DNA of 60,476 bases. Source: Pseudacidovorax intermedius. GTDB lineage: Bacteria > Pseudomonadota > Gammaproteobacteria > Burkholderiales > Burkholderiaceae_C. The stretch spans positions 1-60,476 of the forward strand of contig NZ_LDSL01000098.1 in the NCBI RefSeq assembly GCF_001476815.1, written 5' to 3'. This document shows positions 9,036 through 60,476 of this stretch, one piece after another. Under the pieces are notes generated by a model. It was given only the letters and a program-made list of their open reading frames with translations, was not told the origin of the DNA and ran no database searches. The translations under genes were made by a program, and so were the position numbers. Each line of letters starts with the position of its first letter. The first letter of the stretch is position 1.

Positions 9036-10604
9036 ATGAGTCCCCGTGTCATCACCCTGGAGAGCGAGATCGATTGGCCTGGCTTCCGGAGGGAGGCACG
9101 CGCCCTGCTCGCCGCGCTGGTGCCACCCGATGAAGTGCAGTGGCAGACGCCCGGGCAACCGGCACCAGAGCTGTGGGCCGACCAGGAGGTGGCTCGCCCG
9201 TCCGCACCCCCTGCGATGCCGACGCGGCCGCTGGGCAGCGCAGGGCCGGCGCGCCTCGTGGTGCCGCCCGCCTTTCTGACGCTGTGCGAGAAGGTGGTGC
9301 TGCACCAGGACCCGCAGCGCTTTGCGCTGCTCTACCGGCTGCTGTGGCGTCTGGTCCACGAGCGTGGCCTGCGCCAGGACCCGCTCGATCCCGACCGCCT
9401 GCGCGCCCGCCAGATGCTTCAGTCGGTGCGGCGCGACATGCACAAGATGAAGGCCTTCGTGCGCTTCCGCCCCGTCGGCCAGCCCGAAGGCGAAGCGCCC
9501 CTGTCGGTGGCCTGGTTCGAGCCGGAGCACCACATCGTCGAAGCCGTCGCGCCCTTCTTCGTGCGCCGCTTCACGCAGATGCACTGGGCCATCCTCACAC
9601 CCGAATGCTCGGTGCGCTGGATGCCCGCGCCGCCCGGCGCACCGCCGCTGGCGGGCGATGACGCCCTGCCCGGCGAACTGGAGTTCGGCCCCGGCGCGTC
9701 GCGCGAGCAGGCCCCCGGGCCGGACGAGGGCGAAGTGCTCTGGCTCACCTACTACGCCCACATCTTTAATCCCGCCCGCCTGAAGCTGTCGATGATGGCG
9801 CGCGAGATGCCGCGCAAGTACTGGTCGAACCTGCCGGAAGCAAAGCTGATCGCGCCCCTGGCCGCCCAGGCCGCGGAACGAACCGGCCGCATGGTGCAGG
9901 CCGAGCCGGCCCCCACCCGGCGCCGCCTGCCGGCGCGGCCGCCGCTACCGCCCGCGGTCTCGCCGGGCCAGGACCCGGCGCACACCCTCGAAGAACTGGC
10001 CCGCGCCACCGACCGCTGCCGCGACTGTCCCATCGGCGAACATGCAACGCAGTCCGTGTTCGGCGAAGGGCCGCTGCATCCTGCGCTCATGCTGGTGGGC
10101 GAGCAGCCGGGCGATCAGGAGGATTTGGCGGGCCATCCCTTCGTCGGTCCTGCAGGACAGCTCCTGGACCGGGCGCTGGAAGCACTGGGCTGGTCGCGCG
10201 ACGCGCTCTACCTCACCAATGCCGTGAAGCATTTCAAGTTCGAGCTTCGCGGCACACGGCGAATCCACAAAAGCCCCGGCCAGCGCGAGGTGCTGGCCTG
10301 CCAGCAATGGCTGGAGCGCGAGATCGCGGTCGTGCGTCCCCGCGCCTTCGTCGCGCTGGGCGCCACGGCGGCGCGCGCGCTCGTCGGACGCGCCGTGCCC
10401 GTGATGACCGAGCGCGGGCAGTGGCTCGCGGGGCCGGAGGGCGTGCCGGTGCTGGTGACCTTGCATCCTTCCGCGCTGCTGCGTGGCGATCCGGCGGAGC
10501 GGGAGTCGCAGTGGCAGGCCTGGCTGACCGATCTGGCGCTGGCCAGCCGCTACCTCAGCGGCGAGGACGCCGAAGAACTCAGTCGTCCGCGCGCCGCAGC
10601 GTGA
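9036..10604 (+). CDS. DUF4130-UdgX fusion, covalent uracil-DNA binding protein
   Basis: The 522-residue protein fuses two families that are often separate. The first about 260 residues are the DUF4130/TIGR03915 'SAM-linked' module. From about residue 310 it is UdgX, a family-4-like uracil-DNA glycosylase. Motif A GEQPGDQED, the distinctive loop RRIH (H at about 411) and motif B HPSALL are all visible. In characterised UdgX the loop histidine attacks the abasic sugar and stays covalently attached to DNA. CxxC near residue 328 should help hold the 4Fe-4S cluster. An in-frame ATG at 9003 is possible, but the family's N-terminus fits 9036. It follows the radical SAM partner by 146 bases. Confidence 0.92.
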   Translation: MSPRVITLESEIDWPGFRREARALLAALVPPDEVQWQTPGQPAPELWADQEVARPSAPPAMPTRPLGSAGPARLVVPPAFLTLCEKVVLHQDPQRFALLYRLLWRLVHERGLRQDPLDPDRLRARQMLQSVRRDMHKMKAFVRFRPVGQPEGEAPLSVAWFEPEHHIVEAVAPFFVRRFTQMHWAILTPECSVRWMPAPPGAPPLAGDDALPGELEFGPGASREQAPGPDEGEVLWLTYYAHIFNPARLKLSMMAREMPRKYWSNLPEAKLIAPLAAQAAERTGRMVQAEPAPTRRRLPARPPLPPAVSPGQDPAHTLEELARATDRCRDCPIGEHATQSVFGEGPLHPALMLVGEQPGDQEDLAGHPFVGPAGQLLDRALEALGWSRDALYLTNAVKHFKFELRGTRRIHKSPGQREVLACQQWLEREIAVVRPRAFVALGATAARALVGRAVPVMTERGQWLAGPEGVPVLVTLHPSALLRGDPAERESQWQAWLTDLALASRYLSGEDAEELSRPRAAA

Positions 10605-11778
10605 TGAGGGTGATTTCGGAAGGCGCGCCCAGGCGCTTCGGCGGACCCCAGTAGCCCGTTCCCCGGCTCACATACACCCACATGTCCTGCAACCGGTGCA
10701 GGCCGGCCGTGAAAGGCTGCTGCAGCGGCACGAACAGGTTCCAGGGAAAGAACTGCCCGCCGTGCGTGTGGCCGGACAGCTGCAGTTGAAAGCCCGCTTC
10801 GGCCGCCGCCGGCGCACTGCGCGGCTGGTGGGCCAGCAGGATGCGCGTGGACACCAGGGGCGGCGCATCGTGCAGGGCCTGGCGCGGGTCGCTGGCGTGG
10901 GCCGTGTCGAAATGGCCGGCGGTGTAGTCGGTCACGCCGGCCACCAGCAGCATGCTTTCCAGCACCTCCTCGTCGGTCTGCGCGCCGTGCACGCTGCGCG
11001 TCTGCAGCACCACGTGCTCGTTGAGCAGCACCTTGAGGCCCAGGCGCTTCAACTCGGCAATCCAGGCATGGGCGCCGGCGTAGTACTCGTGGTTGCCCGT
11101 GACGACGAAGGTGCCGTGCCGCGCCCGCAGGCGCGCCAGCGGCGCGACATGCTCGCGCAGCTCGGGCACGCTGCCGTCCACCAGGTCGCCGGTGATGGCG
11201 ATCATGTCCGCGCCCAGGCGGTTGACCTGGTCCACGATGCGGCCGATGTAGCCGGCGCGGATCGTGGGGCCCACGTGCAGGTCGCTCAGCTGCGCGATGG
11301 TGAAGCCCGCCAGCCGCGCAGGCAGGCCGGCGATGGGCACCTCCACCCGCCGGACCGGCGGCGTGCGCCGCGCGAAGAAGAAGCCCACCAGCGAGTCGGC
11401 CGTGGCCAGCGCCACCACGGCCAGCGCACTGGTCTGCTCCCATTGGGCGCGCACCATGCCGAAGCCGGCCAGCCGGCTCGCGGCCCAGGCCGAGAGCAGC
11501 GCGACGTCGCGCAGCACCGCCAGGACGAACAGCGACGAGAACCAGCCCATGGCCAAAAGGCCCACCCAGCGCACCGGCTTGCGCCAGCGCTCCGGCAGGG
11601 GAAAGCGCTGTACGAAGGGCAGCGGCATGGCGGCGGCCGACACCACCAGCAGCAGGGCGAACAGCGGCCACAGGGCGGTGGCAGCGGCCAGGGCCGGCAG
11701 CAGCCGCACGGCCAGGAAGACGTGCAGCAGCGTGACGAGGAAGACGAGGGGAGCGAGGCGCATGACGAAGATCAACAT
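10579..11778 (-). CDS. Membrane-anchored metallophosphoesterase (YaeI/YkuE-like)
   Basis: The 399-residue protein has four N-terminal membrane helices (within about residues 1-150), then a calcineurin-like phosphoesterase domain. Metal-binding motifs appear in order: SDLHVG, GDLVDG, GNHEYY and, near the C-terminus, GHTHGGQ. Similar proteins hydrolyse phosphoesters, including lipid A precursors such as UDP-diacylglucosamine, but the substrate here is not determinable. The start is uncertain; ATGs at 11805, 11778 and 11763 all precede the first helix. Its last 26 bases overlap the end of the convergent UdgX gene. Confidence 0.88.
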   Translation of the reverse strand: MLIFVMRLAPLVFLVTLLHVFLAVRLLPALAAATALWPLFALLLVVSAAAMPLPFVQRFPLPERWRKPVRWVGLLAMGWFSSLFVLAVLRDVALLSAWAASRLAGFGMVRAQWEQTSALAVVALATADSLVGFFFARRTPPVRRVEVPIAGLPARLAGFTIAQLSDLHVGPTIRAGYIGRIVDQVNRLGADMIAITGDLVDGSVPELREHVAPLARLRARHGTFVVTGNHEYYAGAHAWIAELKRLGLKVLLNEHVVLQTRSVHGAQTDEEVLESMLLVAGVTDYTAGHFDTAHASDPRQALHDAPPLVSTRILLAHQPRSAPAAAEAGFQLQLSGHTHGGQFFPWNLFVPLQQPFTAGLHRLQDMWVYVSRGTGYWGPPKRLGAPSEITLITLRRADD

Positions 11779-49457: not shown

Positions 49458-50657
49458 TCAATGCGCGCCCGACAGGACGACCGGGACCTCGGTCGCCGGC
49501 GGCGTGTTGCGGCTGCGGCCGCAGCGCACGATGCCGTCGATCATCACCATGCCCACGCCGGGCAGGTCGCCCAGCTGCACGCTCTCCAGCAGGGTGCGGC
49601 CGGGCGTGTGCTGGGCCCGGTCCAGGAAGACGAAGTCGGCCGCGTAGCCCTTGTCGATCAGGCCGCAGTTGAGCTTGCGCATGCGCGCCGTGTTGCCGGT
49701 GGCGAAGCAGAACACCAGCTCGGCCGGGATGTTGGCCAGCGAGGACAGCATGGCGATCATGCGCAGGATGCCCAGCGGCTGCACGCCCGAGCCGGCCGGG
49801 CCGTCGGTGCCCAGGATCACGCGGTGCGGGCACTTGAGCTCCAGTGCCGCACGCGCCGCCGCGATGGCCACGCGCTCGTTGCCGTTGTGGACGATCTCGA
49901 TGCCCCGCGTGCTCTTCTCGCACAGCTCGCACACGTGCGCCTCGGGCAGCGAGGTGTGGCCGCCGTTGATGTGGCCGATGATGTCGGCGTCGGCCTCCAG
50001 CACCACGTCCTTGTCGATCAGGCCCGAGCCGGGAATCGACGGGCCGCCCGTGTGGATGGTGCTCTGGATGCCGTACTTGCGGGCCCAGGCCACCATCTCC
50101 TTGGCCTCGTAGCCGGCCTTGACGCTGCCCAGGCCGACCTCGCCCAGCAGGCCGACGCCGGCCTCGGCCAGTTCCTTGAAGTCGCTCTCGACCATGCCCT
50201 TTTCGATCACCGGCGCGCCGGCCAGCACCTTCACGCCGCCGGGGCGGAAGGCGTCGAAGGCACGCTGCGCGGTGATGGCCAGGGCCTTCAGGCCCACGAT
50301 GTCCTTGGGCCGGCCGGGATAGTGCACCTCGCCGGCCGAGATCATGGTGGTCACGCCGCCGTTCATGCTGGACTCGATCCAGTTGAGCTGGCTCTGCCGC
50401 GGCGTCCAGTCGCCGGCCACGGGGTGCACATGGCTGTCGATCAGGCCCGGCGCCACGCAGGTCTGGCGTGCGTCGATGACCGTGGTGGCGCCTTCGACGT
50501 CGCAGTCCTTGTAGCGGCCGACGGCGGCGATCAGGCCGTCCTGGACGACGATGGTGTCGGCCTGCAGGATGGGCTGGTCGATGTCGCCCGAAAGCAGCAG
50601 CCCTATGTTCTGGATGACGACCTTGCCCGACTTGCCGGCGGCGGCGACTTCTGCCAT
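49458..50657 (-). CDS. Enamidase-like amidohydrolase
   Basis: The 399-residue protein is a metal-dependent amidohydrolase with HxH at H76/H78 (DSHVHP), further metal or substrate ligands in GEVGLG, HTGG and HINGG, and the catalytic Asp in LGTDGPAG. The closest match I recognise is enamidase (Ena) of Eubacterium barkeri nicotinate fermentation. They share the N-terminal VIQNIG...SGDI.QP.LQADTIVVQDGLIAA pattern, GGVTTMISAG, FPGRPKD-like YPGRPKD, the GSGVQPLGILR region and the C-terminal SRNTPPA. That enzyme opens 1,4,5,6-tetrahydro-6-oxonicotinate to 2-formylglutarate and ammonia. The start lies 55 bases inside the TetR gene and has its own GAGG ribosome site. Confidence 0.88.
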   Translation of the reverse strand: MAEVAAAGKSGKVVIQNIGLLLSGDIDQPILQADTIVVQDGLIAAVGRYKDCDVEGATTVIDARQTCVAPGLIDSHVHPVAGDWTPRQSQLNWIESSMNGGVTTMISAGEVHYPGRPKDIVGLKALAITAQRAFDAFRPGGVKVLAGAPVIEKGMVESDFKELAEAGVGLLGEVGLGSVKAGYEAKEMVAWARKYGIQSTIHTGGPSIPGSGLIDKDVVLEADADIIGHINGGHTSLPEAHVCELCEKSTRGIEIVHNGNERVAIAAARAALELKCPHRVILGTDGPAGSGVQPLGILRMIAMLSSLANIPAELVFCFATGNTARMRKLNCGLIDKGYAADFVFLDRAQHTPGRTLLESVQLGDLPGVGMVMIDGIVRCGRSRNTPPATEVPVVLSGAH

Positions 50658-51361
50658 TTTTTGGTTTCCTCGTGGGGTGGGAGAGATTCCGTGCTGTCGT
50701 CCTGCCGCACCGCGCGCAGCACCGTCTCGGTCACGAAGGCCTCCCAGTGCTGGGCGGCCTCGGGGGCCTCGAGCTGCTCGCCCAGGAAGCTGGCGAGCGT
50801 GTAGCGGTTGGACATGTAGAAGTAGCCCGTCGCCGCGATCAGCAGGTAGACGTCGCGCGCGGCCAGGTCGGGGCGGAACAGGCCCTGGGCCGCGCCGCTT
50901 TCCAGAATCGAGGCAATCACCGCCACCGCCCGCGACGAGTACTCGCGCGCCCGCAGCGACTTGGCGATGTGCCGGCCCTTGTGCAGGTTCTCGGTGTTGA
51001 GCAGGGTGACGAAGTCGGGGTTGCGCCGGTAGTAGCCCAGCACGAAGCGGATCACCTCGGTCAGCGCCTCGACCGGGCGGGCCATGTCCAGCGCCATGGC
51101 GGCCTCGGCCTCGTCCATGCGCTGGTAGATGCCCTCCAGCACGGCCACGAACAGGCCTTCCTTGCTGCCGAAGTAGTAATAGATCATCCGGTCGTACGAC
51201 TTGGCCGCGCGGGAGATCTTCTCCACGCTGCCGCCCTCGTAGCCGTACCTGGCGAACACCTTGGTGGCCGCCCGCAGGATGGCCTCGCGCGAGGCCTGCG
51301 CCTGCGCCTCGCGCACGCCGGTCTTGCGCTGCGGCTTGGCGGGCGTCTTGCGTGTGGCCAA
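50603..51361 (-). CDS. TetR-family transcriptional regulator
   Basis: The 252-residue protein has an N-terminal TetR helix-turn-helix (REAILRAATKVFARYGYEGGSVEKISRAAKSYDRMIYYYFGSKEGL, residues 25-69). A helical ligand-binding region of the TetR_C_33/RutR-like type follows. The first codon is TTG at 51361, with GAGGA 9 bases upstream; no ATG fits the conserved N-terminus. The gene overlaps the enamidase-like gene by 55 bases, so regulator and enzyme are co-expressed. It probably senses the pathway substrate or an intermediate. Confidence 0.9.
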   Translation of the reverse strand: MATRKTPAKPQRKTGVREAQAQASREAILRAATKVFARYGYEGGSVEKISRAAKSYDRMIYYYFGSKEGLFVAVLEGIYQRMDEAEAAMALDMARPVEALTEVIRFVLGYYRRNPDFVTLLNTENLHKGRHIAKSLRAREYSSRAVAVIASILESGAAQGLFRPDLAARDVYLLIAATGYFYMSNRYTLASFLGEQLEAPEAAQHWEAFVTETVLRAVRQDDSTESLPPHEETKKWQKSPPPASRARSSSRT

Positions 51362-51391
51362 GGTGTCAGGTCCTCGAAAAGATGCGGCCGA

Positions 51392-51475
51392 GCGCCGGGC
51401 CGCCCCAAGCCGGCCGCGCCGCCCCCTCGGGGGGTGGCGTTACACGCGCGCAGCGCGTGAAAAGCCGGGGGGCTG
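51392..51475 (-). repeat. Variant structured repeat after the ferredoxin reductase gene
   Basis: On the minus strand, CAGCCCCCCGGC begins immediately after the TGA at 51478-51476. A CACGCGCTGCGCGCGTG palindrome, then CCCCCCGAGGGGG, then GGCCGGC...GGGCCGCC-type pairing follow. The order (C-rich lead, short-loop hairpin, C4-6/G4-6 palindrome, GC-rich hairpin) parallels the other repeat family. I recall this sequence type as frequent between genes in Comamonadaceae. It separates fpr from the tetR gene. Confidence 0.82.
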
Positions 51476-52249
51476 TCATTTCTCTACAAAGGCGCGCTCT
51501 ACGACGTAATCGCCGGGAGTGGTGGTGTTGCCCTCGTGGAAGCCGCGCTGCTCCAGGATCAGCTTCATGTCGGCCAGCAGCATGGGGCTGCCGCACAGCA
51601 TCACGCGGTCTTCCTCGGGATTGAGCGGCGGCAGGCCCAGGTCGTCGGTGAGCTTGTTGCTGGTGATCAGGTCGGTGATGCGGCCCTGGTTGCGGAAGGG
51701 CTCGCGCGTCACGGTGGGGTAGTACAGCAGCTGCTCGCTCACCATCTCGCCCAGGAATTCGTGGTGCGGCAGGTCCTGCGTGATGGTGTCGTGGTAGGCC
51801 AGCTCGTTCACTTCGCGCACGCCGTGCACCAGGATGACCTTCTCGAACTTCTCGTAGGTCTCGGGGTCGCGGATCACGCTCAGGAAGGGCGCGACGCCGG
51901 TGCCGGTGCCGAAGAGGTACAGGCGCTTGCCGGGCAGGGTGTAGTCGATCAGCAGCGTGCCGGTGGGCTTGCGGCCGACCACGATGGTGTCGCCGACCTG
52001 GATGTGCTGCAGCCGCGAGGTGAGGGGGCCGTCGGGCACCTTGATGCTCAGGAACTCGAGGTGTTCCTCGTAGTTCGCGCTCACGATGCTGTAGGCGCGC
52101 AGCAGCGGCTTGCCGTCGACCTTCAAGCCGATCATCGTGAAGTGCCCGTTGGAAAAGCGCAGGGCAGGGTCGCGCGTGGTGGTGAAGCTGAACAGGCGGT
52201 CGGTCCAGTGGTGGACGGTCAGGACGCGTTCTTCGGCGAAGGCACTCAT
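51476..52249 (-). CDS. fpr: Ferredoxin--NADP reductase
   Basis: The 257-residue flavoprotein has an FAD-binding barrel with RAYSIVS (FAD motif) and the NADP-binding domain with GTGTGVAPFLSV and VMLCGSPML. It ends in the bacterial-type ERAFVEK tail found in Fpr of proteobacteria. It moves electrons between NADPH and ferredoxin or flavodoxin. Being divergent from the 6-hydroxynicotinate-reductase-like gene, it may feed electrons to that enzyme, although the protein is also a general housekeeping enzyme in this group. Confidence 0.94.
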   Translation of the reverse strand: MSAFAEERVLTVHHWTDRLFSFTTTRDPALRFSNGHFTMIGLKVDGKPLLRAYSIVSANYEEHLEFLSIKVPDGPLTSRLQHIQVGDTIVVGRKPTGTLLIDYTLPGKRLYLFGTGTGVAPFLSVIRDPETYEKFEKVILVHGVREVNELAYHDTITQDLPHHEFLGEMVSEQLLYYPTVTREPFRNQGRITDLITSNKLTDDLGLPPLNPEEDRVMLCGSPMLLADMKLILEQRGFHEGNTTTPGDYVVERAFVEK

Positions 52250-52420
52250 AAGCTAATAACCAAATGAAAGGGAAGCTGGCGGGTGGCACGGGGGCATGCG
52301 CGACTGGCTTGCGGCGCCACTGGCGGGTGCTGCCCATTTTCGTTCACGACGCACCAGGAGGGGGAGCCGTGCACTCTGGAAAACACCCATGCAAGCATCG
52401 CGCCGGGCCGCTAGATTCGT

Positions 52421-52444
52421 TTCATGTAGCGCTCACAACATGAA
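52421..52444. promoter_or_regulatory. Perfect 7 bp inverted repeat, candidate operator
   Basis: TTCATGT (52421-52427) and ACATGAA (52438-52444) form a perfect inverted repeat around a 10-base centre, in the 288 bp gap between divergent fpr and the hydroxynicotinate-reductase-like gene. Size and position suit a TetR-family operator; the TetR gene at 50603 is the obvious candidate. The rest of the gap holds no recognisable gene. Confidence 0.5.
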
Positions 52445-52537
52445 GATGGAGCGGATGCTACACAAACGGTGCATCGCCGCCAAGCCGATTCCGGCATGCT
52501 TGTTGCACACACAGGCCGCGTTGCACGAAAGCCCACG

Positions 52538-54166
52538 ATGACAGAACACACCAAGACCGACGGCCTGCCCGGCATCGACATGCCGGCCCTGCCCACCCTG
52601 CCCGACGGCCTGGGCCGTGCGCCCGCGCGCAACGAGCGCATGAGCGCGAGCAAGGTCGAATGCAATGCCTGCCCGGTGCTGTGCCAGATCTCCGACGGCC
52701 GCACCGGTGCCTGCGACCGCTATGCCAATCGCGACGGCGTGCTGGTGCGCACCGACCCGGTGGTCATGCTGCGGCGCGAACTGGATTCGCCCACGCCGGC
52801 GCTGGTGCCCTTTGCCCGCCCCGCTGCGGAGACGGTCGAAGAAGCCGCTGCCGATGCGCCGAAGGACGACTGGAACGGCGACCTGCTGCTGGCCGACCAG
52901 GTCTTCGTCACCGGCATCGGCAGCTCCACCACCTACCCGGACTACAAGCCCGCGCCCTTCATCGTGGCCTCCAAGGCGCAGGGCGTGGACATGGTCACGG
53001 TGGTCACCGAAGGCATCTTCAGCTACTGCAGCGTGAAGGTGAAGATCGACACCGACCGCTTCCTCGGCAGCGAGCAGGCCAACGTCCGCTACAAGGGCGA
53101 GGTGGTGGGCCACGTGACCACCGCCGAGTACGGCTCGCAGATGCTGTCGCTGGGCGGCGTGCACCACCTCACCGGCGGCAGCAAGAAGGAAGGTCGCATG
53201 ACGCTGGAGATGATGCAGCGGCTGTGCAACAAGCAGGCGGCCGAATGCACCATCGACGGCGGCGCCAGCCTGGTCATCCAGGCCGGCCGCGCGCCCATCG
53301 TCAACGGCGTGGAAGAGCAGCGCATGCGCGTGGGCTGCGGCTCGGCCACGGTGGGCATCTTCGCCAAGCAGCTGCTGGGCCTGGCCGACGAGGTGGTGGT
53401 GGTCGACGACCACATCACCGGCGTGCTCACCGAGCATCAGGCCGGCCGCTGTCTGGCCATGCTGCCTTCGGGCATCCAGATGCGCGGGCGCAAGTCCACG
53501 CCGGGGCGCTACTTCCAGGTGGCCAACCCGGGCAGCGGCTGGGGCGGCACCGACATCGCCGACCCGCTGGCCATCATCGAGGGCTGGGAGCCCGGCGTGG
53601 CCAGGCCCGGCCTCACGCTGCTGATGACCTCCACCACCGGCGAGCAGGCTGAGTGGTACGTGCTGGACGACGACCTGCGTCCCGTGCCGCAGCCCATGCC
53701 CGAGGCCGTGCGCAAGGTGGTCGAGCGCATCGGCGAGAACTGCGAGCCGTCGCTCACCACGGTGCTCTTCCTGGGCGGCGCGGGGGGCAGCCTTCGCGCG
53801 GGCGTGACGGAGAACCCGATCCTGCTCACGCGGGCCATCAAGCGCGCGCTGGTCAACGTGACCTGCGGCGGCGCACCGGCCTATGTGTGGCCGGGCGGCG
53901 GTATCACCGTCATGGCCGATGTCATGCGCATGCCCGACAACAGCTTCGGCACCGTGCCCACGCCGGCCATCATCGCGCCCATCGAGTTCAGTATGACGTT
54001 GCAGGACTACGCCGACCTGGGCGGCCACATGGAGCACGTGATGACGCTGGAGCAGGCCCTGCGCCGCGGCGCATGGCAGGACGACGGCGCGCCGCTCGCC
54101 CGCCGCTTCGTCGGCCAGGCCAGCGACAACCCCTGGCCGCTGGGCCACAAGCCCATGCTGGGCTGA
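52538..54166 (+). CDS. 6-hydroxynicotinate reductase-like iron-sulfur flavoprotein
   Basis: The 542-residue protein has an N-terminal cysteine cluster C42-x2-C45-x3-C49-x9-C59 (CNACPVLC...GACD) that should bind an Fe-S centre. A long alpha/beta region with Gly-rich stretches (TGIGSSTTYPDYKPAPF, GGVHHLTGG, LFLGGAGGSLRAGV) follows. It matches proteins annotated as 6-hydroxynicotinate reductase. The E. barkeri enzyme reduces 6-hydroxynicotinate to 1,4,5,6-tetrahydro-6-oxonicotinate and has covalent flavin and Fe-S clusters. The enamidase-like neighbour would act on that product. An in-frame GTG at 52469 is less likely. Identity of the real substrate is inferred from context. Confidence 0.8.
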   Translation: MTEHTKTDGLPGIDMPALPTLPDGLGRAPARNERMSASKVECNACPVLCQISDGRTGACDRYANRDGVLVRTDPVVMLRRELDSPTPALVPFARPAAETVEEAAADAPKDDWNGDLLLADQVFVTGIGSSTTYPDYKPAPFIVASKAQGVDMVTVVTEGIFSYCSVKVKIDTDRFLGSEQANVRYKGEVVGHVTTAEYGSQMLSLGGVHHLTGGSKKEGRMTLEMMQRLCNKQAAECTIDGGASLVIQAGRAPIVNGVEEQRMRVGCGSATVGIFAKQLLGLADEVVVVDDHITGVLTEHQAGRCLAMLPSGIQMRGRKSTPGRYFQVANPGSGWGGTDIADPLAIIEGWEPGVARPGLTLLMTSTTGEQAEWYVLDDDLRPVPQPMPEAVRKVVERIGENCEPSLTTVLFLGGAGGSLRAGVTENPILLTRAIKRALVNVTCGGAPAYVWPGGGITVMADVMRMPDNSFGTVPTPAIIAPIEFSMTLQDYADLGGHMEHVMTLEQALRRGAWQDDGAPLARRFVGQASDNPWPLGHKPMLG

Positions 54167-54187
54167 TCGATCGCGCACACGCACGGC

Positions 54188-55078
54188 ATGCCCGCCCAAC
54201 GCCAAGCCCTCGATGCCCAGCGCTGGCACTGGCACCACGGTCCCATGGACCTCGTGGTCCAGGCCGAGGGTGAGCCGCGCGCCGTGGCCGAGGCGCACGA
54301 GGCGGCCTGGGCGCGCTTCGAAGGCCTGCTCGATGAGCTGGTCGCCGAGTTGCCCGCGCTGCGCCGGCCGGTGTCGGACCATGCGGCCCTGCGTGGCCCC
54401 GTCGCGCGCCGCATGCAGGCCGCCTGCCTGCCTTTCCTGCCCGCCTTCATCACGCCGATGGCCGCCGTGGCCGGCGCGGTCGCGCAGGAGCTGATCGCCT
54501 TCTACCAACGTGCCGGCGTCACCCGCGCCTGGATCAACAACGGTGGCGACATCGCGCTGCACCTCGCGCCCGGCACCGAGGCGCGCGTCGGCCTCTATGC
54601 GGACCTCGCCCGCTTCGACCCGCGCGACGCCGAGCGCCTGCGCACCGATGGGCAGTTCAGCGTGACCGCCGCAGAGCCGGTGCGTGGTATCGCCACCAGC
54701 GGCTGGCGCGGCCGCAGCTTCTCGCTCGGCATCGCGGACAGCGTGACGATCCTCGCGGCGACCGCCGCGCAGGCCGACGCCGCGGCGTCGATGGTCGCCA
54801 ACGCCGTCGATGCAGAGCACCCCGCCATCGAGCGCCGCCCCGCCAACGACTGCAAGGACGACAGCGACCTCGGTGCGCTGCCCGTCACCGTGCAGGTGCC
54901 GCCGCTGCCCCCCACCGTGGTGCGCGATGCGGTCGAGGCGGGCCTGGGCCGCGCGAGCGAACTGCAGTCGCGAGGTCTGATCCACGCCGCCGTGATCGTG
55001 TGCCAAGGGCAATGGAGAGTGCTGTCGGCACGCAACCCAGCCCTGGCGACAGAGCGCGTTGGTTCAGTATTTGCTTAA
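54188..55078 (+). CDS. UPF0280/ApbE-superfamily protein
   Basis: The 296-residue protein belongs to UPF0280, a family structurally related to ApbE flavin transferases. AWINNGGDIALHL and GIATSGWRGRSFSLGIADSVTILAATAAQADAAAS correspond to the ApbE NxGGD and T-D metal-binding segments, with N and D residues conserved. It follows the reductase gene by 21 bases. Since the homologous reductase carries covalent flavin, this protein is a good candidate for attaching it; that is inference. No signal peptide is present, unlike periplasmic ApbE, which fits a cytoplasmic target. Confidence 0.85.
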   Translation: MPAQRQALDAQRWHWHHGPMDLVVQAEGEPRAVAEAHEAAWARFEGLLDELVAELPALRRPVSDHAALRGPVARRMQAACLPFLPAFITPMAAVAGAVAQELIAFYQRAGVTRAWINNGGDIALHLAPGTEARVGLYADLARFDPRDAERLRTDGQFSVTAAEPVRGIATSGWRGRSFSLGIADSVTILAATAAQADAAASMVANAVDAEHPAIERRPANDCKDDSDLGALPVTVQVPPLPPTVVRDAVEAGLGRASELQSRGLIHAAVIVCQGQWRVLSARNPALATERVGSVFA

Positions 55079-55102
55079 CGAATCGCATACCCCGTCCACA
55101 CG

Positions 55103-55744
55103 ATGATCGACATCCGCCGCGTCTTCACCCAGGTCGAGCAGATCCACCACGAATTCGGCCCCCGCGCCGAGCAGCCGCTGGTGCGCGGCGCCATCGGCGC
55201 CGTGCTCGCCAACCCCTTCGCCGGCCGCTACGAGCCGGACATCCTGCCCATGATGGCGCTGCTGGATCCGGTCGGCGTGGACATGGCCCAGCGCCTGCTG
55301 GCCGCCATGGACGTGCCGCGCGAGGCCATCGCCACCTACGGCAAGGGCGCCATCGTGGGCGCCGCGGGCGAGCTGGAACACGGCGCGCTGTGGCACGTGC
55401 CCGGCGGCTATGCCATGCGCGAGCTGCTGGGCTGGAAGGGCGACCGTGCGGCCTACACCGCAGGCAAAGGCGAAACCAAGAGCGGCCAGCCCGGCAATGC
55501 GCTGTCCATCGTGCCCTCCGCCAAAAAGGTCGGTCCGCCCGGTGCCGCGCTCGATGTGCCGCTGACCAACATCAACGCCAGCTACGTGCGGGGCCAGTTC
55601 GACGCCATCGAGGTGCGCGTGCCCGGCGCGCCCGCGGCCGACGAGATCGTCTTCATCCTCGCCATGACCACCGGCTACCGGGTGCATGCCCGCGTCGGCG
55701 GCCTGAAGGCCGAGGACATCAGCCAATGGAACGGCCTGCGCTGA
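55103..55744 (+). CDS. 'Amino acid synthesis' family protein (PF06684), first copy
   Basis: The 213-residue protein begins IDIRRVFTQVEQIHHEFG and contains ANPFAGRYEPDI, YGKGAIVGAAGELEHGALWHVPGGYAMRELLG and VPSAKKVGPPGAALDVPLTNINASYVRGQFDAIEVRV, the hallmarks of PF06684. The family has no established reaction. A conserved Lys in SAKK and acidic GELEH residues could form a catalytic site. It is 24 bases after the UPF0280 gene and 28 before a paralogue, so it belongs to the same operon. Confidence 0.85.
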   Translation: MIDIRRVFTQVEQIHHEFGPRAEQPLVRGAIGAVLANPFAGRYEPDILPMMALLDPVGVDMAQRLLAAMDVPREAIATYGKGAIVGAAGELEHGALWHVPGGYAMRELLGWKGDRAAYTAGKGETKSGQPGNALSIVPSAKKVGPPGAALDVPLTNINASYVRGQFDAIEVRVPGAPAADEIVFILAMTTGYRVHARVGGLKAEDISQWNGLR

Positions 55745-55772
55745 GGCGCGCACCGGACAACAAGGAGCATCC

Positions 55773-56357
55773 ATGCCAGCAGACATCCGCAAACTGATCG
55801 TCCAGGTGGACGAGACCCGCAAGGAAATGGGCCAGACCATCGACCCGCCCACGCGCCGCGCCGTCGCCATCGCCGTCATCGCCAACCCCTACGCCGGCCG
55901 CTACAGCGAGAACCTGGACGAGCTGATCGCCATCGGCGAAGAGCTGGGCGGCCTGCTCGGCCAGAAGGCCGTGAAGGCGCTGGGCATCGAGCCCGGCCAG
56001 GCGCAGAGCTACGGCAAGGCCGCCATCGTCGGCGAGGGCGGCGAGCTGGAGCATGCGGCGGCCATCCTGCATCCCAAGCTGGGCGCGCCGCTGCGCGTGG
56101 CCGTGGAGAAGGGCGCCGCGCTGGTGCCCTCGGCCAAGAAGCAGGGCACGCTGGGCACCCCCATCGACGTGCCCCTGGGCCACAAGGACGCCGCCTTCGT
56201 GCGCAGCCACTTCGACGCCGTCGAGGCCCGCGTGAGCGATGCGCCACGCGCGGGCGAGATCGTCGTCGCCGTGGCCGTCACCGACAGCGGCCGGCCGCTG
56301 CCGCGCATCGGCGGGCTGCAGGTGTCCGAGATCAAGGGCGTGGACGGTCTTCGCTGA
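55773..56357 (+). CDS. 'Amino acid synthesis' family protein (PF06684), second copy
   Basis: The 194-residue protein shares the blocks of the first copy: ANPYAGRYSENL, YGKAAIVGEGGELEHAAAILHPKLGAPLR, VPSAKKQGTLGTPIDVPLGHKDAAFVRSHFDAVEARV, GGLQVSEIKGVDGLR. It lacks the 15-20 extra residues around the lid (GYAMRELLGWKGDRAAY) of the first copy. The two may form a heteromer or act on successive substrates. An AAGGAG ribosome site precedes the ATG. Function is unknown. Confidence 0.85.
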   Translation: MPADIRKLIVQVDETRKEMGQTIDPPTRRAVAIAVIANPYAGRYSENLDELIAIGEELGGLLGQKAVKALGIEPGQAQSYGKAAIVGEGGELEHAAAILHPKLGAPLRVAVEKGAALVPSAKKQGTLGTPIDVPLGHKDAAFVRSHFDAVEARVSDAPRAGEIVVAVAVTDSGRPLPRIGGLQVSEIKGVDGLR

Positions 56358-56427
56358 ACGCGGCGCGGCTATTCTTCGCCTGCTTCATTTCTCCCGCTTT
56401 TCCATCCCTTTCGACGAGGAGTTCTCC

Positions 56428-57642
56428 ATGCAACCCTTCCGCCTCCATTTCGGTGCCGCTGCCGCGCTGGCCCTGGCCGCCGGCGCGCTGCTGCCGGCCC
56501 ACGCCCAGAACGTCATCAAGATCGGCGAGGTCAACAGCTACAAGGCCCAGCCCGCCTTCCTCGAGCCCTACAAGAAGGGCATGGAACTGGCCGTCGACGA
56601 GATCAACGCCAAGGGCGGCGTCAACGGCAAGAAGATCGAGCTGATCACCCGCGACGACAACGCCAACCCGGGCGACGCCGTGCGCATGGCCGAGGAACTG
56701 GTCTCGCGCGAGAAGGTGGACGTGCTGGCCGGTGCTTTCCTGTCCAACACCGGCTTGGCGCTGGCCGACTTCGCCAAGCAGAAGAAGTTCTTCTACCTGG
56801 CCGGCGAGCCGCTGACCGACAAGATGACCTGGCAGGGTGGCAACCAGTACACCTTCCGCCTGCGCCCCGGCACCTACATGCAGGCTGCCATGCTGGTGCC
56901 CGAGGCCGTCAAGCAGAAGAAGAAGCGCTGGGCGCTGGTCTACCCCAACTACGAATACGGCCAGTCGGCCGTGGCCGCCTTCAAGAACCTGCTGAAGGCC
57001 GCGCAGCCCGACGTGGAGTTCGTCACCGAGCAGGCCACGCCGCTGGGCAAGGTCGACGCCGGCAGCGTGGTGCAGGCCCTGGCCGATGCCAAGCCCGACG
57101 CCATCTTCAACGTGCTGTTCGGCGCCGACCTGTCGAAGTTCGTGCGCGAGGGCAACACCCGCGGCCTGTTCAAGGACCGAACCGTCGTCAGCGTGCTGAC
57201 CGGCGAGCCCGAGTACCTGGACCCGCTCAAGGACGAGGCGCCCGACGGCTGGATCGTGACCGGCTATCCGTACTACGGCGTCAAGACGCCCGAGCACAAG
57301 GCCTTCCTCGACGCTTACCAGGCCAAGTTCAAGGACTATCCGCGCCTGGGCTCGGTGGTGGGCTACAGCATGATCAAGTCGGCCGCTGCCGGCATCGCCA
57401 AGGCCGGCAGCACCGACGCCGACAAGCTGGTCGCCGCCTTCAAGGGCCTGCAGGTGGACAGCCCCTTCGGCAAGATCACCTACCGCGCCGAAGACCACCA
57501 GTCGACCATGGGCGCCTTCGTCGGCAAGACGAAGAACGAGGGCGGCAAGGGCGTGATGGTGGACTACGTCTACTACGACGGCGCCGATGCGCGTTTCCAG
57601 CCGCCCGCCGCTGAAGTGAAGAAGTCGCGCTCGGCGGACTGA
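56428..57642 (+). CDS. ABC transporter substrate-binding protein (Peripla_BP_6, LivK-like)
   Basis: The 404-residue periplasmic protein has a signal peptide (about residues 1-25, ending AHAQ). A type I periplasmic binding fold of the branched-chain amino acid group follows: IKIGEVNSYKAQPAFLEPYKKGMELAVDEINAKGGVNGKKIELI. The family also binds aromatic acids, amides and other carboxylates. Its place after the ring-degradation genes suggests it captures the pathway's N-heterocyclic substrate. A GAGGAG ribosome site precedes the start. Confidence 0.92.
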   Translation: MQPFRLHFGAAAALALAAGALLPAHAQNVIKIGEVNSYKAQPAFLEPYKKGMELAVDEINAKGGVNGKKIELITRDDNANPGDAVRMAEELVSREKVDVLAGAFLSNTGLALADFAKQKKFFYLAGEPLTDKMTWQGGNQYTFRLRPGTYMQAAMLVPEAVKQKKKRWALVYPNYEYGQSAVAAFKNLLKAAQPDVEFVTEQATPLGKVDAGSVVQALADAKPDAIFNVLFGADLSKFVREGNTRGLFKDRTVVSVLTGEPEYLDPLKDEAPDGWIVTGYPYYGVKTPEHKAFLDAYQAKFKDYPRLGSVVGYSMIKSAAAGIAKAGSTDADKLVAAFKGLQVDSPFGKITYRAEDHQSTMGAFVGKTKNEGGKGVMVDYVYYDGADARFQPPAAEVKKSRSAD

Positions 57643-57674
57643 CCGCACGCGTCCCAGAAGAAGAGAACCATGCC

Positions 57675-59630
57675 ATGAGTTTTTCCGGCCTGATCGTCCA
57701 GCTCCTGAACGGGCTGGCGTCTGCGTCCTCGCTGTTCCTGGTGGCGGCGGGCCTGTCGCTGATCTTCGGCGTGACGCGCATCGTCAACTTCGCGCATGGC
57801 TCCTTCTTCATGGTGGGCATCTACGTCGCCTACACCCTGGCCGACAAGCTGGGCGGCGCCGGTTTCTGGGTGGCGCTGCCGCTGGCGGCCATTGCCGTGG
57901 GCGTGCTCGGCGCGGTGATCGAGGTGGTGCTGCTGCGCCGCATCTACAAGGCGCCCGAGCTCTTCCAGCTGCTGGCCACCTTCGCGCTGGTGCTGGTCAT
58001 CAAGGACGCGGTGCTCTGGCTCTGGGGCCCCGACGAGCTGCTGGGCCCGCGCGCGCCGGGCCTGCGCGGCTCGGTCGAGATTCTGGGCCGGCAGTTCCCG
58101 GCTTACGACCTGTTCCTGATCGTCATCGGCCCGGTGGTGCTGGGCTTGGTGTGGCTGCTGCTGACGCGCACCCGTTTCGGCACGCTGGTGCGCGCCGCCA
58201 CGCAGGACCGCGAGATGGTCAGCGCCCTGGGCGTCAACCAGGCCTGGCTGTTCACGGCGGTGTTCGCGCTGGGCGCGCTGCTGGCCGGCCTGGGCGGCGC
58301 GCTGCAACTGCCGCGCGAGCCCGCCACGCTGGAGATGGACCTCAACACCATCGGCGCCGCCTTCGTGGTGGTGGTGGTGGGCGGCATGGGCTCGCTGCCC
58401 GGCGCCTATGTCGCGGCCCTGCTCATCGCCGAGATCAAGGCCCTGTGCATCTGGCTGGGCGTTGTCGAGATCGCGGGCATCGCCATCTCCTTTTCCAAGC
58501 TCACCTTGGTGGTCGACTTCCTGGTCATGGCCGCCGTGCTGGTCTGGCGGCCCTGGGGCCTGATGGGCCGGCCGCAGGCGCCGAGCCGCTATGTGGGAAT
58601 GCAGGAAGAGCCGTTGCGCCGCGCGGGCGGCTCCTACGTCGCGGCCGTGGGCGTGCTGGCCCTGGTGCTGGCGGCGATGCCGGTGCTGACGGCCAGCTCG
58701 CCCTACACGACGGTACTGCTGATCGACCTGCTGATCGCCGCGCTCTTCGCAGCCAGCCTGCACTTCATCATGGGGCCGGCGGGCATGCATTCCTTCGGCC
58801 ATGCGGCGTACTTCGGCCTGGGCGCTTACGGGGCTGCGCTGCTGGCGCGCGCCGCCGGCCTGCCGATGGAACTGACGCTGGTGCTGGCGCCGGTGGTGGC
58901 GGGCCTCGGCGCCCTGGTCTACGGCTGGTTCGCCGTGCGGCTGTCGGGCGTGTACCTGGCCATGCTGACGCTGGCCTTCGCCCAGATCACCTGGGCCATC
59001 GTCTACCAGTGGGACAGCTTCACCGGCGGCAGCAACGGCCTGACGGGCGTGTGGCCGTCGGAGTGGCTCAATGACAAACGCAACTACTACTGGCTCACGC
59101 TGGTGCTGGTGGGTGGCGGCCTGTGGTGGCTGCGCCGCGTGCTGTTCTCGCCCTTCGGCTATGCGCTGCGTGCGGGCCGCGACTCGGTGCTGCGCGCCGA
59201 CGCCATCGGCATCGACGTCAAGCGCATGCAGTGGGCGGGCTTCGTGGTGGCCGGCGCGGTGGCGGGCCTGGCGGGCGGGCTGTTCGCGTATTCCAAGGGC
59301 AGCATCTCGCCGGAGACGCTGGCGGTGGGCCGCTCGGTGGACGGCCTGGTGATGGTGCTGCTGGGCGGCATCCAGACCCTGGCCGGCCCGGTGGTGGGCG
59401 CCTTCACCTTCACCTGGCTGCACGACATGGTGGCCCGCAACACCGACTACTGGCGCGCCATGCTGGGCGCCATCATCCTGATCCTGGTGCTGCTGTTCCC
59501 GCAGGGCATCGCCGGCTCGATCAAGCAACTGGCCGACAAGTGGCGCGAGCGGCGCGACGACGAAGCGGCCGATGAGGCGGCCCAGGCGCCGATGCAGGCC
59601 GCCGCCGCGGCGGGGGAGCGTGCGCGATGA
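57675..59630 (+). CDS. Fused LivH-LivM-type ABC permease
   Basis: The 651-residue protein joins the two permeases of a branched-chain-type importer. Residues 1 to about 295 are LivH-like (LNGLASASSLFLVAAGLSLIFGVTRIVNFAHGSFFMVG). About 320-620 is LivM-like (GPAGMHSFGHAAYFGLGAYGAALLA and RMQWAGFVVAGAVAGLAGGLFAY). Both EAA-like cytoplasmic loops are present. Such fusions occur in proteobacterial transporters for non-amino-acid substrates. A polar, Ala-rich tail ends the protein. Confidence 0.93.
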   Translation: MSFSGLIVQLLNGLASASSLFLVAAGLSLIFGVTRIVNFAHGSFFMVGIYVAYTLADKLGGAGFWVALPLAAIAVGVLGAVIEVVLLRRIYKAPELFQLLATFALVLVIKDAVLWLWGPDELLGPRAPGLRGSVEILGRQFPAYDLFLIVIGPVVLGLVWLLLTRTRFGTLVRAATQDREMVSALGVNQAWLFTAVFALGALLAGLGGALQLPREPATLEMDLNTIGAAFVVVVVGGMGSLPGAYVAALLIAEIKALCIWLGVVEIAGIAISFSKLTLVVDFLVMAAVLVWRPWGLMGRPQAPSRYVGMQEEPLRRAGGSYVAAVGVLALVLAAMPVLTASSPYTTVLLIDLLIAALFAASLHFIMGPAGMHSFGHAAYFGLGAYGAALLARAAGLPMELTLVLAPVVAGLGALVYGWFAVRLSGVYLAMLTLAFAQITWAIVYQWDSFTGGSNGLTGVWPSEWLNDKRNYYWLTLVLVGGGLWWLRRVLFSPFGYALRAGRDSVLRADAIGIDVKRMQWAGFVVAGAVAGLAGGLFAYSKGSISPETLAVGRSVDGLVMVLLGGIQTLAGPVVGAFTFTWLHDMVARNTDYWRAMLGAIILILVLLFPQGIAGSIKQLADKWRERRDDEAADEAAQAPMQAAAAAGERAR

Positions 59631-59679
59631 GCCGCCGGTCCTGCTGCGTCGTCTTCTTCATCCGCCTGGAGGTGCTCTG

Positions 59680-60444
59680 ATGTCCCTGCTGCATGTCCAG
59701 AACCTGGGCAAGTCCTTCGGCGGCGTGAAGGCCGTCGACGGCATCAGCTTCACGCTGGCCAAGGGCGAGCTGCTGGCGCTGATCGGCCCCAACGGCGCCG
59801 GCAAGTCCACCACCTTCAACATGGTCAACGGCCAGCTCAAGGCCGACCAGGGCTCCATCACGCTGGACGGCACCGAGCTGGTCGGCAAGAAGCCGCGCGA
59901 GATCTGGCGCCTGGGGGTGGGCCGCACCTTCCAGATCGCCGAGACCTTCTCGTCGCTGACGGTGGTGGAGAACGTGCAGATGGCGCTGCTGTCGCACGAC
60001 GCGAAGCTGTTCGCGATGTGGCGGCGGGCGTCCGACCACAAGCGCGACGAGGCGCTGGCGCTGCTCGAGCAGGTGGGCATGAAGTCGCAGGCCGACCGGC
60101 CCTGCAGCGTGCTGGCCTATGGCGACGTCAAGCGCGTGGAGCTGGCGATTGCGATGGCCAACGACCCCAAGCTGCTGCTGATGGACGAGCCCACGGCCGG
60201 CATGGCGCCGAAGGAACGCAATTCGCTGATGGCGCTGACCAAGCAGCTGGTGATCGACCGCGGCATGGCGGTGCTGTTCACCGAGCACAGCATGGACGTG
60301 GTGTTCGCGTATGCCGACCGCATGATCGTGCTGGCGCGCGGGCGGCTGATCGCCGAGGGCAAGCCGCTGGAGATCCGGGACCATCCGAAGGTGCAGGAGG
60401 TGTACTTCGGGTCTGGCAAGACGTTCGAGAAGAAGGCTGCATGA
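59680..60444 (+). CDS. LivG-type ABC transporter ATP-binding protein
   Basis: The 254-residue ATPase has Walker A GPNGAGKST (about residues 36-44), a Q-loop in RTFQIAETF, the signature segment LAYGDVKRVELAIA (a variant of the usual LSYGxQRxxExA), Walker B LLLMDEPTAGM and switch H in TEHSMD. It is 49 bases after the fused permease, with GGAGGTG upstream of the ATG. The LivF-type second ATPase expected for this importer would lie just past the window end. Confidence 0.95.
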   Translation: MSLLHVQNLGKSFGGVKAVDGISFTLAKGELLALIGPNGAGKSTTFNMVNGQLKADQGSITLDGTELVGKKPREIWRLGVGRTFQIAETFSSLTVVENVQMALLSHDAKLFAMWRRASDHKRDEALALLEQVGMKSQADRPCSVLAYGDVKRVELAIAMANDPKLLLMDEPTAGMAPKERNSLMALTKQLVIDRGMAVLFTEHSMDVVFAYADRMIVLARGRLIAEGKPLEIRDHPKVQEVYFGSGKTFEKKAA

Positions 60445-60476
60445 ATTGCTTGGTGGCTTCTGTTCGGGGCGCGCCC

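Follow-up and report, generated by a model that had tools for sequence, protein, structure and literature searches.

Contig NZ_LDSL01000098.1 of the betaproteobacterium Pseudacidovorax intermedius, whose 60,476 nucleotides form the whole stretch analysed here (the window), ends in a group of genes that raises the question of which ring they degrade and whether such a system has been seen before. An enamidase-like amidohydrolase (Ena) and a 6-hydroxynicotinate reductase-like protein (HNR) stand there with a UPF0280 protein, two PF06684 proteins and a Liv-type importer. The locus is very probably part of a reductive-type catabolic cluster for nicotinate or nicotinamide, an assignment of reactions and substrate that draws on gene content, synteny and co-occurrence. 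All of the genes named in the original prediction were confirmed at their coordinates, all but HNR with Pfam, NCBIfam or PDB matches, as follows.

49458..50657, minus strand: Ena, enamidase-like amidohydrolase (PDB 2vun match)
50603..51361, minus strand: TetR-type regulator (PF17938 and PF00440; best NCBIfam match RutR, far under the cut-off)
51476..52249, minus strand: FNR, ferredoxin-NADP reductase (NF008178, E=2.9e-44, under the cut-off; PF00970 and PF00175)
52538..54166, plus strand: HNR, 6-hydroxynicotinate reductase-like protein (N-terminal CxxCxxxC...C motif; orthologue annotation)
54188..55078, plus strand: UPF0280 protein (NF003322, 393 bits against a cut-off of 290; ApbE-like modelled fold)
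55103..55744, plus strand: AAS1, PF06684 protein of the AAS1 clade (213 bits against a gathering score of 27)
55773..56357, plus strand: AAS2, PF06684 protein of the AAS2 clade (235 bits against a gathering score of 27)
56428..57642, plus strand: SBP, substrate-binding protein of the ABC importer (PF13458)
57675..59630, plus strand: LivHM, fused LivH-LivM permease (PF02653 in two stretches)
59680..60444, plus strand: LivG, ATPase (PF00005), 32 bp from the contig end

Spacing from HNR to LivG is operon-like (21, 24, 28, 70, 32 and 49 bp), and Ena, TetR and FNR are oriented oppositely to HNR, 288 bp upstream of it. Annotation was confined to this locus; positions 1-49,400 of the window received a rough gene call only.

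A probable nicotinate cluster and the contig end

The window is the entire contig C294, one of the 295 into which the 5.5 Mb genome is assembled, and it stops after livG. The original prediction stated that the window has no molybdenum hydroxylase, which holds for the genes of the locus and fails for the genome, where livF, pncA, nicA and nicB lie at the end of another contig, C52 (45,364 bp). The livF match starts 168 bp from that contig end and is the best livF of the genome (82%); livF, looked for beyond position 60,476, was found in the strain itself as well as in relatives. The nicB match consists of two pieces (72 and 76%) within one open frame, its product having MoCoBD and cytochrome c domains, and between livF and nicB sit nicA and the gene of an isochorismatase-family protein (PncA) that passes the NCBIfam nicotinamidase cut-off (183 bits against 174) and whose start looks twin-arginine-like by eye. 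On a single contig of Pseudacidovorax sp. NFM-22 the matches to the ends of C294 and C52 (94.4 and 92.8% identity) stand about 0.8 kb apart with order and orientation kept, and the HNR of that strain is 98% identical to the one in the window. No gene was recognised in the NFM-22 gap of about 0.8 kb, though open reading frames (ORFs) of up to 259 aa occur there. A Comamonadaceae plasmid has the syntenic order unbroken, livG being followed by livF, a (2Fe-2S) protein and a molybdopterin oxidoreductase, with no pncA listed. Judged by this synteny, which provides the linkage in the strain itself, the absent hydroxylase is an assembly effect: it only seemed missing because contig C294 stops inside the cluster.

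Gene content fits what had been predicted for this betaproteobacterium, a reductive N-heteroaromatic route of the Eubacterium barkeri type in which the enamidase acts after the reductase. Ena matches the 2vun enamidase over nearly its full length (residues 11-391, E=7.7e-107) and shares with it, in the alignment, HxH, GEVGLG, HTGG, HINGG and an Asp after [TN], residues that we take to be metal ligands. HNR is about 57-98% identical to its orthologues, many of which are annotated as 6-hydroxynicotinate reductase in plasmid records. In the proposed pathway, nicotinate would be taken up by the Liv-type importer or released from nicotinamide by the nicotinamidase, which is probably exported. NicAB, the molybdenum hydroxylase with cytochrome c domains, would convert it to 6-hydroxynicotinate, and HNR, supplied with NADPH electrons by the Fpr-type reductase (FNR), would reduce this to 1,4,5,6-tetrahydro-6-oxonicotinate (tetrahydro-oxonicotinate, THON). 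Ena would then open the THON lactam to give 2-formylglutarate and ammonia, the former presumably draining to glutarate. UPF0280 would serve as a probable HNR-specific maturation factor, and the PF06684 proteins would probably act on the aminomethylene or formyl dicarboxylate that ring opening yields.

Several points weigh against this assignment. C294 and C52 have no overlap at their ends and are joined by synteny only; for the initial 217 bp of C52, the livF start included, NFM-22 gave no match. HNR, widespread as it is (591 confirmed stretches), has no significant Pfam, NCBIfam or PDB match; its structural model is weak (predicted local distance difference test, pLDDT, 65.6; predicted template modelling score, pTM, 0.54) and led to no fold match that could be used, and its putative identity comes from orthologue annotation. 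An aldehyde dehydrogenase, which was expected beyond position 60,476, did not turn up among the families common to at least four loci. As a separate observation, the N-terminus of livF differs from that in NFM-22, and misassembly or recombination at the C52 end is possible.

The original prediction favoured a variant pathway or another substrate, and one could still imagine a cluster for a different hydroxylated pyridine or a pyrimidine, with nicAB serving another purpose. The regulator is indeed nearest to RutR, a pyrimidine regulator, though far under the cut-off, and an Ena-AAS1-AAS2 set that lacks HNR and adjoins a Bmp-type transporter and a nucleoside hydrolase in genome G123, with a like set in G194, indicates that this module can serve another route. 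Yet nicotinamidase and nicotinate-dehydrogenase-type genes adjoin livF in the strain's own genome, at a C52 end collinear with the NFM-22 contig, and in relatives, and a like cluster occurs in bacteria reported to use nicotinate (PMC3511419). We regard a different substrate as highly improbable and retain nicotinate or nicotinamide.

The claim that the combination is undescribed does not survive. A cluster of the same kind was reported in 2012 from Azorhizobium and Bradyrhizobiaceae (PMC3511419), comprising an ABC transporter, two conserved genes of unknown function and the genes for the three initial steps; the nicotinate route of Azorhizobium caulinodans passes THON and glutarate, and strain SG-6C, which degrades 6-chloronicotinate via 6-hydroxynicotinate, carries in its conserved cluster a homologue of the E. 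barkeri reductase with 42% identity. The present locus shares with that type an HNR homologue, nicotinate hydroxylase genes linked by synteny to hnr and ena, and an ABC transporter with conserved unknown proteins. It differs in having a fused LivHM and a nicotinamidase, in its TetR regulator, where MarR is annotated at the alphaproteobacterial loci, and in carrying AAS1 besides AAS2, the latter being the sole PF06684 copy at loci L056-L062, L064 and L065. The locus is thus a further example of an already described kind of cluster and, as a system, ordinary.

The same order of reactions, 6-hydroxynicotinate reductase and then enamidase, operates in the nicotinate fermentation of E. barkeri, whose reductase reportedly carries a covalent flavin; Alhapel et al. 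in 2006 are said to have noted such genes in nine Proteobacteria. Unlike E. barkeri, the present cluster has a NicB with cytochrome c domains, and Pfam and NCBIfam scans found no gene of the hydroxymethylglutarate branch among the locus genes.

Conservation of the gene set and two proposed ways to open the ring

That Ena, UPF0280 and PF06684 genes would recur together with HNR was borne out across the sampled loci. Among 80 betaproteobacterial loci, kept from the 591 confirmed HNR stretches and many of them truncated at a contig end or at the 10 kb limit of the flank, HNR was counted in 80, UPF0280 in 79, AAS2 in 76, AAS1 in 73 (one of which, in L152, is a different paralogue with 42% identity), LivHM in 72 and TetR in 70. 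Ena (68), LivG (66), SBP (64), LivF (64), NicA (63) and FNR (61) follow, and NicB (56) and PncA (33) are lowest. In a diverse sample of 37 loci (6 plasmid and 31 genome), UPF0280 in every case directly follows HNR and shares its strand, PF06684 is present in 36 (the exception being L055) and a molybdenum hydroxylase of the NicAB or XdhM/L type in 35, the flanking stretches of L038 and L054 showing none. The association of these genes is not due to chance. In genome G016 (L079, about 9200-10770) HNR matches as two overlapping pieces in different frames, possibly owing to a frameshift or a sequencing error.

Several loci have HyuAB and no Ena within the fetched stretch; HyuAB is not among the genes of the present locus. 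The nearest NCBIfam families of the L036 proteins are those of caprolactamase CapA and CapB (NF050156 and NF050157, 2e-144 and 4.5e-92), in which respect HyuAB resembles CapAB, described in PMC8453981 as an ATP-dependent lactam opener. As caprolactamase itself the L036 pair was rejected, its members scoring 482 and 309 bits where the cut-off for each is 1000. A census of the 31 HNR genomes besides that of the window found Ena (at least 61% identity) in 17 and a close HyuA in 16, with both in 2 and neither in 0; the HyuA threshold of at least 60% was chosen after the gap had been seen, the next matches being at most 44%. On the HNR tree (46 rows, those of plasmid and betaproteobacterial origin labelled by locus) 3 switches of the opener label are required, each of them imposed by supported branches. 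The enamidase thus appears, from gene content, to be exchanged for a caprolactamase-like HyuAB, and this apparent swap for an ATP-dependent lactamase allows different modes of opening of the reduced nicotinate ring to be compared in nature. Near HyuAB-type loci we also noticed one family of about 460-490 aa proteins, 35-55% identical to each other (L036 4917-6380, L037 14906-16279, L078 12039-13415) and membrane-like by eye; Pfam gave no match for those of L036 and L037.

UPF0280 as a probable partner of the reductase

UPF0280 and HNR occur in exactly the same 32 of the 398 Pseudomonadota genomes surveyed. In view of this one-to-one tie, UPF0280 is probably a dedicated maturation factor of HNR. 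Its model has the ApbE fold, which brings to mind an ApbE-type flavin transferase that would place FMN on HNR by the usual motif. We consider that role unlikely: the ApbE target motif D-x-x-[ST]-G-A-[ST] (PMC12052999) is found in 0 of 115 HNRs, the score of 18.5 bits against Pfam ApbE falls short of the cut-off of 25.6, and the H-x-x-DP segment that provides the catalytic base His of ApbE appears shortened and without the His in UPF0280, as read from a single weak hhalign alignment. Homology between COG2122 and ApbE also seems to stop short of the flavin-binding region, according to a statement quoted in PMC5764234. Somewhat better placed, though still tentative, is the notion that UPF0280 aids Fe-S or persulfide chemistry of HNR instead of flavinylation, a role suggested for its COG2122 relatives when homocysteine is made. 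All 115 HNRs share seven invariant Cys, and in Desulfovibrio COG2122 is needed along with DUF39 and a NIL/ferredoxin protein, a persulfide role having been suggested (PMC5764234). Against this, two HNRs searched against Pfam gave no DUF39 match at E up to 10, a search in which the HMMER filters drop many weak matches. Whatever its chemistry, the probable maturation factor goes with just one reductase across the Pseudomonadota sampled, which narrows its role to one that can be tested.

PF06684 proteins and their proposed link to the products of ring opening

AAS1 and AAS2 fall on opposite sides of a supported branch (100/97, 73 rows), and AAS2 tracks the enamidase. Among the 29 single-opener genomes, AAS2 is at the HNR locus in 15/15 of those with Ena versus 1/14 of those with HyuAB, while AAS1 is there in 6/15 versus 13/14. 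Fisher's test for the link between AAS2 and opener gives p = 2e-7 by genome and 0.0014 by genus, the genus count being the only step in which kinship is removed. Against a strict rule, two of the four HyuAB plasmid loci, L036 and L040, have both copies (L037 and L038 have AAS1 only), and L055, with HyuA, has neither; in the two genomes with both openers, Ena is found at a second locus, next to AAS1 and AAS2. These second loci (L192 2996-11318, L193 2348-11737) are Ena-AAS1-AAS2 sets without HNR; the two genomes carry HyuA, and their HNR locus has no Ena. L192 also carries an inosine-uridine type nucleoside hydrolase and a Bmp-type transporter (by Pfam), L193 looks alike by eye, and a riboside route is possible for this set.

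The two copies differ in their conserved His residues. AAS2 keeps both in 96/96 rows and in the window, where all sampled motif residues are retained, whereas in AAS1 the RSH His is replaced by Gln in 26 of 75 betaproteobacterial rows (L035, L049, L050, L080-L101 and L130) and the His at the GHKD position by Asn in 29 of 75, both replacements being present in the window. From these residues, AAS1 may be a non-catalytic partner in the window's group.

PF06684 also occurs beyond HNR. It was found in 59 of the 398 genomes, which include 31 of the 32 with HNR, and 20 places outside HNR loci were inspected (18 of the 28 non-HNR genomes and the strain's own two paralogues). An aldehyde dehydrogenase and an alpha/beta hydrolase are present at 14 of these 20 (weakly at L207; families by Pfam for L196), with a luciferase-like monooxygenase in 12 of the 14 and a flavin reductase likewise in 12; the other 6 places are off this pattern. 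Such neighbourhoods resemble the trigonelline set. Trigonelline and nicotinate breakdown are both thought to give an aminomethylene or formyl dicarboxylate and, because they share such a product, the PF06684 proteins probably act on it, a role proposed here by analogy. In the trigonelline (tgn-type) clusters a PF06684 protein, TgnF, likewise stands beside ring-degradation genes and is said, at second hand, to stimulate succinate-semialdehyde oxidation (PMC7913881). None of the companions of tgn-like loci, the alpha/beta hydrolase and aldehyde dehydrogenase and mostly also the luciferase-like monooxygenase and flavin reductase, is among the present locus genes.

Could the pair instead be unrelated to ring-opening products and have a regulatory or structural task, for example as a partner of the importer? 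An earlier STRING-based reading placed the family in branched-chain amino-acid metabolism and transport (PMC2954203), and for the PF06684 protein HcdD attempts to see an effect failed (PMC7913881). This idea is nonetheless doubtful, since the family is retained whether the locus has Ena or HyuAB (36/37), keeps company with aldehyde dehydrogenase and alpha/beta hydrolase at the 14 places just described, and has a LivHM-like gene labelled at 2 of the 20 (L203 and L208, by a rough gene call). Action on the ring-opening dicarboxylate is the role we prefer.

The strain's own two further paralogues belong to other gene sets. That on contig C3 (L160) branches outside both clades, and that on C220 (L161) falls on the AAS1 side together with the extra copy of L152. 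One of the two is surrounded by ORFs that look by eye like those of an aldehyde dehydrogenase, a flavin monooxygenase and VOC-like proteins. Close to the other are ORFs judged by eye to belong to an ABC transporter, together with an Amidohydro_3 protein identified by Pfam.

Taken jointly, and as a tentative proposal, UPF0280 would be an ApbE-fold maturase obligatory for HNR, with a site and mechanism unlike those of ApbE, and PF06684 would be an enzyme class for the aminomethylene- or formyl-dicarboxylates that pyridine-ring opening yields from nicotinate and trigonelline. Its subfamilies would be matched to interchangeable openers, AAS2 to the enamidase and AAS1 to HyuAB, AAS1 having decayed to a non-catalytic partner in the Variovorax/Pseudacidovorax group. 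For the locus itself, the lesson is that a known pathway can pass for a new one when the contig breaks off within it. For PF06684, the field is narrowed to ring-breakdown clusters and to a testable role and, if the joint proposal is true, two protein families without known chemistry would each gain one.

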